Below are positions 1 through 5,995 of a stretch of 40,136 bases of DNA, one piece after another (positions within the stretch are counted from its first letter, which is position 1; every line of letters begins with the position of its first letter). This stretch comes from Acidobacteria bacterium RIFCSPLOWO2_12_FULL_65_11 (GTDB taxonomy: Bacteria > Acidobacteriota > Vicinamibacteria > Vicinamibacterales > CAVVIG01), in assembly GCA_001767495.1 (NCBI GenBank), contig MELA01000131.1:1-40136 (forward strand). The letters run 5' to 3'. The notes below the pieces were generated by a model. That model was not told the origin of the DNA. It made no database searches and worked only from the letters and a program-made list of their open reading frames with translations. The position numbers and the translations under genes are program-made.

Positions 1-23
1 GCTCCCCTGAATGCATCATGACG

Positions 24-98
24 GCATAACACGCGGCTGCACCGGACGGCCGCGCGTGAAGATCCGTGAGCGGCCGCCGGTGAGCCGCAACGTTGGCT
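24..98 (+). other. candidate integron attC recombination site 1
   Basis: R'' GCATAAC (24-30), 9-nt spacer, L'' CACCGG-A-CGGCCGC (40-53) with one unpaired A, terminal spacer, L' GCGGCCGCCGGTG (70-82), 9-nt spacer, R' GTTGGCT (92-98). Arms are complementary apart from the extrahelical A. Confidence 0.6.
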
Positions 99-183
99 AG
101 GCTGCTGAACAAATCGGCAAACCAGACCTTCGGTAATCAAGTCCAATTCACTTCAGGGAGAGGGTGCTACCCCTCGACGTGAC

Positions 184-609
184 TTGGTGACCAGATTGTC
201 AAACAGGACAACCAGCTATCTTCTATTAGGCGCTCTGGGATCCCTCGGAGTGCTCTCCTGTGTCGGTCCTACAGCCCCCTCCGACGGGCGCGTGTGCACG
301 GCGCAGGTTGTTCCGGGCATCGTCGTTGAAATTCGCGCGAAGGCCAGTGCGCAACCGCTCGCGTATTGGGCCCAAGGTGTTGTTCGGGAGGGCGCCTATT
401 CCGATTCATTGGAGCCGTACGGATTCCTCAATCTTGATCCTCAATCAATGGTCTCGCGCCAGGCCGCTTACGAGCGGGCAGGCATCTATTCGGTAGAAGT
501 CACGGCGTCTGGTTTTCAAACCGTTAAATTTGAGGGTGTCACCGTCCTCAGTGGCCCGTGCCATGTCCAGACTGCGAATCTCACGGCCCTACTAGAACCG
601 GCACCGTAG
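184..609 (+). CDS. small secreted lipoprotein-like protein, carboxypeptidase-regulatory-like fold; probable integron cassette gene
   Basis: N-terminal hydrophobic segment with lipobox-like LGVLSC; PGIVVEIRAK...AGIYSVEVTASGFQTVKFEGVTV resembles CarboxypepD_reg repeats; TTG/GTG start; lies between two attC-like sites. Confidence 0.55.
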   Translation: MVTRLSNRTTSYLLLGALGSLGVLSCVGPTAPSDGRVCTAQVVPGIVVEIRAKASAQPLAYWAQGVVREGAYSDSLEPYGFLNLDPQSMVSRQAAYERAGIYSVEVTASGFQTVKFEGVTVLSGPCHVQTANLTALLEPAP

Positions 610-617
610 CTTGTCGA

Positions 618-698
618 CAGCAGCCATGCGATGGAGCCGACGCACCTGGTGCCTGTGATATTGTCGCCGCGGTGCGCGGCTCATCGCTGACGTTATAA
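618..698 (+). other. candidate integron attC recombination site 2
   Basis: L'' GAGCCG-A-CGCACC (634-646) pairs with L' GGTGCGCGGCTC (671-682), leaving one extrahelical A; 9-nt spacer then R' GTTATAA (692-698). R'' (618-624, CAGCAGC) is degenerate. Starts 9 nt after the upstream stop codon. Confidence 0.55.
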
Positions 699-884
699 GG
701 AACAAGAGCAACTGGCTGCTGCGGCCATCGGGGTCATCCGGGTCATGTCGGCGTTCAGTTCGCCGTAACCAGGCCTCTCGATCGGCGGCGCGCGCCGGTG
801 TCTTCTTGAACAGTGTCGGTTCTCGTATCGATCCAGCGGAGGGGCCAAGCCGTCGCCCGTGGTCGCGTCGAGGGCCTGGGCGAC

Positions 885-2496: not shown

Positions 2497-2892
2497 ATGG
2501 CCGAAGCAAAGGTGTTCTACGACCGTGAGGGCCAAACGTTGACCGTCTGGTTTATCGATCACGTCGAAGTGACCGACGAGAACATTACGGCCCACCTCGT
2601 CGATGGTCGTGTCATTAGCGTTCCGCTCGCCTGGTCGTGGCGCCTCTCGGACGCGACACCGGCCCAACGGGCGAACTGGACGTTGATTGGCGATGGCCAC
2701 GGCGTTCACTGGCCTGACGTCGACGAAGATCTGAGTGCGGACGGCATGCTCAACGGCGTGCCAGCTCGTCGTCCTGGAATTGCCAAGAATGGTCGCACCC
2801 CCGGCCTGCTCAGCGCCGGGGCCCATAGGCCCCAGCCTACTGTTTTTTCGCCAGCCAGCGAAAGAACACGATCACCAGCGCGGCCGGAATGA
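2497..2892 (+). CDS. DUF2442-domain protein with C-terminal read-through extension
   Basis: YDREGQTLTVWFIDHVEVTDENITAHLVDGRVISVPLAWSWRLSDATPAQRANWTLIGDGHGVHWPDVDEDLSADGML matches the DUF2442 pattern. Confidence 0.75.
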   Translation: MAEAKVFYDREGQTLTVWFIDHVEVTDENITAHLVDGRVISVPLAWSWRLSDATPAQRANWTLIGDGHGVHWPDVDEDLSADGMLNGVPARRPGIAKNGRTPGLLSAGAHRPQPTVFSPASERTRSPARPE

Positions 2893-3349
2893 GTGATCCC
2901 CACCACCCACCGAGACCGATCGCGGCTAGCGCGTCCGGTCCCAGTCTCACCACGACGAGCATGATCGCGCCCGCCCATGCCAACGCGCTCACCAGATTGA
3001 GCAGCGTGAAGCGGATGGGCCGGACACCGGCGTAGGCGCACGCCACGGGAATGGCGATGCGCAGTCCGGGAAGGAACCGGCACGCGAGCAGCATCAGATC
3101 CTGGTTGGCCTTGACGCGATCGACCACCGCGTCGCGATGTCTGGCGAGCCAGCCATAACGGTCCAGCCAGTGAATGCGCCCGCGCAGCAGGTAAAACCAC
3201 AGCTGATCGCCGATCGATCCCCCGAGCGCCCCACTGATGAGCACGCCGGCCCAGTCGAGCTTTCCGGCTTTCGCTGCCACGCACATCGCGACGTAATAGA
3301 TCTCGCCCTCGAGAATCGCGAAGAAGACTATCGACAGATAGACGAGCAC
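2837..3349 (-). CDS. DedA family (SNARE-associated/VTT) membrane protein
   Basis: Multi-TM; GALGGSIGDQLWFYLLRG and CRFLPGLRIAIPVACAYAGV motifs. Confidence 0.85.
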   Translation of the reverse strand: MLVYLSIVFFAILEGEIYYVAMCVAAKAGKLDWAGVLISGALGGSIGDQLWFYLLRGRIHWLDRYGWLARHRDAVVDRVKANQDLMLLACRFLPGLRIAIPVACAYAGVRPIRFTLLNLVSALAWAGAIMLVVVRLGPDALAAIGLGGWWGSLIPAALVIVFFRWLAKKQ

Positions 3350-3350
3350 G

Positions 3351-4604
3351 TTACGCGTGCGCCAGCACGTCGCGCACGACGCGGGCGACCCGCTCGGCCT
3401 CCTCGTCGGTCAGGCTTGAATAGACCGGGATCTGCATGGCGCCCGCCGCCCGCCGTGCGCCTAGCGCTCCAGGTGGGACGACCTTCGAGCCGGCAAACAG
3501 ATCCATGTCGCTGCACACGTCGACGTGGAGTGTTTCGACGTCGATGCCGCGCTTCACGCATTGCACCACCAGCTCGTCGCGCTTCGGGCCGAAGACGCAG
3601 TACTGGTAGTAGACGTGGGTCCGCCGTTCGGGCACCTGCGGTACCTGAATGCCGGGCAGGCGGCCGAGCGTCCGGTCCATCAATTGCACATGGCGGCGCG
3701 TCGCGGCGGTCCACTCGTCGAGCTTGTCGAGCGCCGCCAGGCCAATCGCCGCCTGCACGTTGGGGAACCGCTCCCTATAGGCCTCGGGCAGCGGATCGAG
3801 CGATCGAATGTGCTCCCACAGGTACACGTCAGGATTGGCGCCGATGAGCGACGAGATCCACAGAATGGGAAACGCGCTGATCGTGAACACCCACGGCTTG
3901 ATGAAGATGCGCTGGAGCCGGCCGACCAGCAGCCGGTTGTTGACCCGCTTCTCACCGGGCCACGGCTCGGACTCCGCGAGCGATCGCACGTAGGCAGCGA
4001 CCTCCGGATCCCGGACAAGCGCCAGGCCGCCGCCGTAGCAGTTCAGCGGCTTGAGTGTCTGAAAACTGAAAATGCCTGCGTCGCCGAACGTGCCGACGGG
4101 CTTACGGTCGAAGGTGGCGCCGACGGCGTGCGCGCAGTCTTCGATGACGCGCAGGTCGTGCAGACGTGCGATCGACATGATCGCGTCCATGTCGCACGGC
4201 AGCCCGTAGAGGTGCGTCGGCACCACGGCACGCGTGGCCGGCGTGATCGCGCGCTCGAGCGCGGTCGGGCTCAAGTTGAACGTCGCCGAATCGACGTCCG
4301 CAAACACCACCTTGAGGCCGGCGACGCGCGCCAGCTCCGGCATGACCCAGAAGGTCAGGGCCGGAAAGACGATCTCCGATCCCAGCGGCAGATCGAGCGC
4401 CTTGAGGACGTAGTAGAACGCCATGCGCGCGTACGACGCCGCGACGGCCTGCGGCGGAGCCACGCCTGCGCGCTCGGCGAACGCGGCCTCGAACTGTCCG
4501 ATTTGAGGACCTGTAATGAACTCGCCGCGTGCGTGGCAGCCGGCGATAATCTGCTGTGTATTCGGCAGGACTCGCGCTCCGTAGCGCGAGATGGCCGTCA
4601 GCAT
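3351..4604 (-). CDS. DegT/DnrJ/EryC1/StrS family PLP-dependent aminotransferase
   Basis: VFPALTFWVMPELARVAG, VIEDCAHAVGA, GIFSFQTLKPLNCYGGG (PLP lysine region). Confidence 0.88.
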   Translation of the reverse strand: MLTAISRYGARVLPNTQQIIAGCHARGEFITGPQIGQFEAAFAERAGVAPPQAVAASYARMAFYYVLKALDLPLGSEIVFPALTFWVMPELARVAGLKVVFADVDSATFNLSPTALERAITPATRAVVPTHLYGLPCDMDAIMSIARLHDLRVIEDCAHAVGATFDRKPVGTFGDAGIFSFQTLKPLNCYGGGLALVRDPEVAAYVRSLAESEPWPGEKRVNNRLLVGRLQRIFIKPWVFTISAFPILWISSLIGANPDVYLWEHIRSLDPLPEAYRERFPNVQAAIGLAALDKLDEWTAATRRHVQLMDRTLGRLPGIQVPQVPERRTHVYYQYCVFGPKRDELVVQCVKRGIDVETLHVDVCSDMDLFAGSKVVPPGALGARRAAGAMQIPVYSSLTDEEAERVARVVRDVLAHA

Positions 4605-5995
4605 GTGACGGGGCGGGAAACGCGGCCGATCTCCTGTCGCGTGTGCCGGTCGTTCACCCGCCGGTCCATCCGGCTCACCCACTCGCGAACGGCCGTGTCG
4701 TGAATCTGGAGCAGATTCGCCAGATACGACGGCCGCACGTAGAACCGCGTATAGGCCGCGCCCAGCAGGAACTTCAGCTCGTGCCGCGTCAGATTCGGAT
4801 GCCGGAAGGTCAGCGTGTGGCCGTCGAACTTCTCCCAGTCGGTCTCGGTCAGCAGCGGCTCGAGCTGCTTGAACATCGGCGTCCCGGGATACGGCGTCAG
4901 AATCTTGAACTGCGCGAAGGTCGACCCCAGCTCGGTCGAGTAGTCGATCGTCGCCGCGATGGACTCCCAGGTGTCCTGCAGGAACCCGAGCACGTAGAAC
5001 CCCGCCGTCACAATCCCCTTCCGCTGGCAGTGGTCGAGGATCGCCCGCTGGTGCGCCTGTGGAATCGGCCGCCGCCCTGATTTTTTCAGCGTTGCCGGGT
5101 CGAGCGATTCCACGCCGAAGCTCATCGCCCGGAACCCGGCCGCATGCAGCCGATCGAGCAGCTCCACGTCGAGCCGGTCCAGCCGCGTCTCGGCCTCGAA
5201 GGTCAGCGTGAGACCGCGCGCCGCAATCTCGTCGCACAGCTCCAGACACCGATCGCGCTGCTCGCTGAACAACGGGTCCCGGAAGATCACGTACGGCCGC
5301 GGATGCTGGTCGCACAGCCGCTCCAGTTCGTCGACGATGTTCGCGATGGAGCGTGCGCGGTAGCCCGCCAGGATTCGATGCGGGCAATACGTGCAGAACT
5401 CCGGACAGCCCCGGCTCGCCAGCAGCGGATAGCCCCCGCCCACGGGCCGCGCCGACCACTGGATGCCCAGCATGCCGCGACGATCCTCGGTGACCAGATC
5501 CCAGCGCGGAAACGGCAGCGCGTCGAGGTCGTCGATCTGCTCGCTCACGACGGAGCCGGCGGGAATGTTCCCGTGGGCGATTCGCATCACGCCCGCTTCC
5601 GGCTCTCCGGTGAGGATGAAATCACAATGGTCGCGGAACAACTCCGGCATTTTCGAGGCGGTGATGCCGATAAAGCCGACCTTTACGCCTCGCGACCGCA
5701 TCCGGTCGGCCCACGCCGTTTCGTGCCGGTAGTCGACGAGCGACGACAGCACGAGCGCCACGTCGCCGTCCACGACGTCGCCCCGGGTCCACTTCACGTC
5801 GTGCCCGCCGCGCGCCAGGATGGATGCGAGGTAGGCCATGTGCACGCTCGGTACGTCGTGGAAGTAGCGCTTCTGCCACGCATAGATACGCGTCACCCGC
5901 GAGAACGGATCGAGCCGCGACCCGTACCCGCCGACGACCGTATCCTTATTGACGAATCCACGGTCGGACTTCAGGTCGGCGAGAACAACGCGCAT
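4598..5995 (-). CDS. B12-binding domain radical SAM protein
   Basis: Radical SAM motif CPEFCTYCPH; N-terminal B12-binding-like domain; FKILTPYPGTPMF; 7-bp overlap with the downstream aminotransferase. Confidence 0.88.
   Translation of the reverse strand: MRVVLADLKSDRGFVNKDTVVGGYGSRLDPFSRVTRIYAWQKRYFHDVPSVHMAYLASILARGGHDVKWTRGDVVDGDVALVLSSLVDYRHETAWADRMRSRGVKVGFIGITASKMPELFRDHCDFILTGEPEAGVMRIAHGNIPAGSVVSEQIDDLDALPFPRWDLVTEDRRGMLGIQWSARPVGGGYPLLASRGCPEFCTYCPHRILAGYRARSIANIVDELERLCDQHPRPYVIFRDPLFSEQRDRCLELCDEIAARGLTLTFEAETRLDRLDVELLDRLHAAGFRAMSFGVESLDPATLKKSGRRPIPQAHQRAILDHCQRKGIVTAGFYVLGFLQDTWESIAATIDYSTELGSTFAQFKILTPYPGTPMFKQLEPLLTETDWEKFDGHTLTFRHPNLTRHELKFLLGAAYTRFYVRPSYLANLLQIHDTAVREWVSRMDRRVNDRHTRQEIGRVSRPVTC

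Follow-up and report, generated by a model that had tools for sequence, protein, structure and literature searches.

A contig of Acidobacteria bacterium RIFCSPLOWO2_12_FULL_65_11 begins, very probably, inside the tail of a sedentary chromosomal integron

We analyzed contig MELA01000131.1 (C131) of Acidobacteria bacterium RIFCSPLOWO2_12_FULL_65_11 (GCA_001767495.1), a draft assembly of 3.55 Mb in 153 contigs, 98% complete. The window, meaning the whole stretch of 40,136 bp analyzed here, is the entire contig, so its base 1 is an assembly break. Its left end very probably represents the tail, or distal end, of a sedentary chromosomal integron, the integrase of which is most likely the intI gene of another contig, C72, lying past the contig break. 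What looked like an orphan cassette would then be the tail end of a defined integron, in a lineage of which few members are cultivated, and contig edges can conceal integrases. The features at this end are the following, in window coordinates.

1–92 (+), 3' end of an upstream cassette cut off by the contig start; the body of this cassette, which attC1 closes, is to the left of base 1
22–100 (+), attC1; held-out covariance model match of 34.3 bits (E = 1e-6), R'' GCATAAC at 24–30, R' GTTGGCT at 92–98
93–692 (+), complete 600-bp gene cassette, bounded by the G^TT points 92/93 (attC1) and 692/693 (attC2)
184–609 (+), cassette ORF of 141 aa, lipoprotein-like; signal with ...VLSC, no Pfam match above the cut-off
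616–700 (+), attC2; held-out covariance model matches of 57.8 bits (R1) and 62.6 bits (R2), R'' degenerate, R' GTTATAA at 692–698
1018–1407 (−), Fic/Doc-family toxin-like gene (PF02661, E = 1.8e-19), possible former cassette; L092 and L093 carry ~50% identical genes immediately downstream of intI
1598–1987 (−), N-terminal fragment of an IS110-type transposase (weak PF01548, below cut-off), with 46% identity to the copy of the array region on contig C112
2173–2373 (+), ParE/RelE-type toxin fragment (PF05016, E = 1e-4, at the cut-off)
2497–2892 (+), DUF2442 gene (PF10387), probable former cassette with no detectable attC
2837–3349 (−), VTT-domain gene (PF09335), chromosomal flank; the DegT–VTT neighbourhood is kept in relatives
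3351–4601 (−), DegT/DnrJ aminotransferase (PF01041), chromosomal flank by synteny
4598–5995 (−), radical SAM gene (PF04055), chromosomal flank by synteny

The two attC sites and the cassette between them

Both hairpins of the window are attC sites, as the original prediction had claimed for 24–98 and 618–698. Two covariance models were used. Model R1, built from the five attC sites of contig C55, recovered window positions 618–700 in a whole-genome search (57.8 bits, E = 1.4e-11) and gave no match for attC1. Model R2 was built from 32 attC sites on other contigs of the same genome, both window sites being held out, and it scored 616–700 at 62.6 bits (E = 4.2e-14) and 22–100 at 34.3 bits; both scores are significant, and the next best R2 score in the window, 15.4 bits (E = 0.09), adds no third site. 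attC1 is a member of a second attC subtype, found by the broader model; it was also absent from the 150 candidates scored in a genome-wide scan. By blastn, attC1 resembles the attC sites of contigs C57, C96 and C88 (75–84%), and attC2 has 76–86% nucleotide identity with those of C55 and C112. An Rfam search of the window returned zero matches, a result uninformative for attC.

The geometry proposed for the two sites, with a single unpaired A in the L'' arm, stood only as far as it is shared: folding gives the same long stem in both, with two unpaired bases on the top-strand L'' side (GCGGCT-G-CACCGG-A-CGGCCGC and GCGATG-G-AGCCG-A-CGCACC). Taken alone, the fold gives modest shuffle z-scores (−1.8 to −3.8), and the hairpins were judged to be attC because of their homology to other sites, not because of these z-scores. 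Across 37 sites from ten contigs, those of the window among them, 12 of the 19 stem pairs change on both sides. In the same alignment, which was fitted to the covariance model and therefore favours the structure, 95% of cells are paired, none of 500 shuffles reaches as high a value, and sliding the partner destroys the signal.

A possible third attC at about 884–1010 (GGTCAAC ... GTTAGAC at 1004) was rejected, scoring 4.2 bits at 990–1012 with R2 and filters off. The sequence at 983–1010, GGCTCATTTGCGTGACCGAACGTTAGAC, looks like the 3' half of an attC and does not score as a site. A degenerate attC after the DUF2442 gene (about 2800–2842) was likewise discarded, with a non-significant 8.7 bits on the other strand.

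The cassette has the expected layout, with a single short ORF that reads toward attC2 and ends 9 nt before position 618, as originally described. Cutting at G^TT releases exactly 600 bp (T93..G692), where about 600 bp had been predicted. In integron recombination, the attC bottom strand folds, IntI binds the R and L boxes and one strand is exchanged at R'; circular cassettes are excised and inserted at attI or at another attC. Here, IntI would recombine each window attC as a folded single strand, cut at G^TT in R', so that cassettes could be excised, inserted or reshuffled, 93–692 being one such cassette. The weak points admitted by the original prediction hold: the R' cores are GTTGGCT and GTTATAA, and attC2 lacks the AAC of R'', a motif retained by almost every other attC of this genome. 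As attC2 is also the last detectable attC of the window array, this terminal cassette may be hard to excise or mobilize.

The only domain match of the cassette ORF, to a carboxypeptidase regulatory-like domain, is below threshold. None of 26 family-level relatives has a detectable homologue; beyond the family, we found two remote ones (34–38%), in another family of the same class, and one short local match. The two lipoprotein homologues (G061 and G062) were considered as cassettes and set aside, because the best attC score beside them was 12.3 bits.

Beyond attC2, no attC was detected up to the VTT gene, even with filters off, and the genes there resemble the contents of other arrays. The ParE fragment is ~36% identical to ParE genes directly preceding attC in C55 and in the relative G012, and the DUF2442 gene has 80% amino acid identity over 81 aa with a C112 gene immediately followed by an attC. 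We infer from these similarities that 700–2836 is probably an eroded array tail.

The missing integrase and the other end of the locus

The original prediction saw an integron cassette with no integrase in view, and a search for intI and further attC sites bears it out. No intI exists on C131, and a profile search of the genome found three intact full-length IntI genes above the TIGR02249 cut-off, on C55, C72 and C92. There are 37 attC sites on at least ten contigs, window sites included, forming arrays of near-uniform attC in a genome that also carries intI genes, with ORFs ending a few nucleotides ahead of several other sites. On C55, five obvious attC adjoin intI in the classical (divergent) layout. 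The IntI ORF of that contig (L010, 5932–7770) is ~290 residues longer at its N-terminus, which may reflect fusion or duplication of the integrase start or a start codon called too early. On C112 (L042, 8142–16257), at least seven attC form an array with an IS110-type transposase inside, and no intI was found on the contig. A further tyrosine recombinase on C141 (16725–17534), ~32% identical to IntI, is below the TIGR02249 cut-off and has no attC nearby.

Synteny points to C72 as the other end. Relatives in the family keep the order PIG-L – AMP-binding ligase – VTT – DegT – radical SAM; the order from PIG-L through VTT to DegT was read in nine relatives (L071–L074, L076, L077 and L166–L168, the L072 piece stopping short of PIG-L), with PIG-L and AMP-ligase named from their translations. 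An amidohydrolase assignment for the gene after VTT was rejected, since the translated product looks like an AMP-binding ligase. In the window VTT, DegT and radical SAM are present, and the array occupies the place of the AMP-ligase, an orthologue of which was not found in this genome (best matches 29–35%). PIG-L has a single full homologue in this genome (64% over 968 aa), close to the right end of C72 and followed by an intact intI (45122–46066, +) that has visible catalytic R, H..R and Y motifs and points off the contig end. C72 stops 372 nt later, with no attC in that interval. On the C72 side the link is the synteny of one gene, the joining sequence being unassembled, and the gene that comes next upstream in relatives did not turn up on the examined piece of C72. 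Because the sole PIG-L orthologue adjoins intI on C72 and the array adjoins VTT on C131, we infer that the two contigs are the ends of a single integron split in assembly. The orientations agree: PIG-L (+), intI (+), gap, attC1 (+), attC2 (+), VTT (−). The proposed locus would read PIG-L, intI, unassembled cassettes, attC1, lipoprotein cassette, attC2 and toxin/antitoxin-like remnants in one direction, followed by VTT, DegT and radical SAM in the other. It is most likely an ordinary integron by kind, whose integrase is missing from the window because the contig edge cuts the array, severed rather than absent. IntI presumably acts on the attC sites of the window.

The lack of intI on C131 could also mean a CALIN, that is, an attC cluster without its own integrase (IntegronFinder definition, PMC9024848), produced by secondary-site insertion or intI loss and served in trans from C55, C72 or C92. 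Apparently isolated cassettes on C122 of the same genome and in two relatives (a single DUF4260–attC unit in G023 and a single attC in G024) fit this reading, and C131 taken alone, with two attC and no intI, looks like a CALIN. But the contig begins inside the array, its head being unseen, and the syntenic partner PIG-L adjoins an intact intI on C72 in the matching direction, so an integrase probably severed by assembly sets the locus apart from a CALIN, which we consider unlikely. Still less probable is that the array belongs to another platform, either the intI of C92, which is likewise directed off its contig end, or the classical divergent one of C55, whose attC sites, with those of the C112 array, are the closest to attC2. 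Neither C92 nor C55 has the genes expected beside VTT, while C72 has them, in the right direction.

If C72 and C131 are indeed joined, the layout is atypical, since by synteny this intI would be transcribed toward its cassettes. In seven metagenome-assembled loci with related IntI, all 21 attC at E < 1e-3 are downstream of intI and co-directional with it. Among named IntI, the closest is that of Acidobacteria bacterium RIFCSPLOWO2_02_FULL_67_21, with 89% identity. Treponema integrons also have intI transcribed toward attI (PMC3607928), and are similar in having intI and cassettes co-directional, as for C72–C131 by synteny and in the seven loci. On the other hand, the phylum and the integrases are different, and one platform here (C55) has the usual divergent layout. 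Ghaly et al. 2021 described an Acidobacteria attC covariance model and sedentary chromosomal integrons with taxon-specific attC (PMC8352920). The present genome is similar in combining near-uniform attC arrays with intI, and in having attC recognized by a taxon-trained model, but it differs in its three platforms within one draft genome and its arrays over at least ten contigs. A reversed integron layout and dispersed cassettes are documented for an acidobacterial family.

The interval next to VTT in related genomes

With this model, attC sites were detectable in 22 of 27 family genomes, this one included. The interval adjacent to VTT is occupied in 4 of 15 genomes examined: in the present integron and in G012, G023 and G024. 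In G012 (L078, 2935–3072), a 46-aa C-terminal remnant of intI directly follows VTT and is itself followed by two attC, and the locus reads as a decayed reversed integron at the orthologous position. G023 (L073, 5732–6201) has a DUF4260-like gene, named from its translation, and a single attC between conserved chromosomal genes, which looks like a lone inserted cassette; G024 has a single attC. Weak sites, possibly decayed (19.4 bits), are found in G016 and G026, and the intervals of the remaining genomes examined are short or unrelated.

Hairpins conserved with chromosomal neighbours and no cassette turnover would have spoken against the original prediction. Instead, the relatives lack both these hairpins and the cassette gene, which is absent from all 26 of them, and the orthologous interval holds other cassettes or none. 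A reading of the hairpins as ordinary inverted repeats of the chromosome (terminators or REP/BIME-like elements) is hardly credible, despite the modest single-fold z-scores, given their significant held-out scores, single-base bulges on one arm and R' cores, the genes ending beside many sites, the arrays adjoining intI, and the fact that most relatives lack them in the orthologous interval.

It is possible, although rather doubtful, that integrons and lone cassettes of this acidobacterial family have docked repeatedly in the interval downstream of VTT, which would suggest that insertion, whether IntI-mediated or of platforms, favours this chromosomal target. Alternatively, the occupied intervals could reflect the decay of old integrons. 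The locus offers a comparison of empty and occupied intervals across genera, in which the arrival and decay of an integron can be traced. The attC sites in this interval have two orientations, that of the present genome and G023 being opposite to that of G012 and G024.
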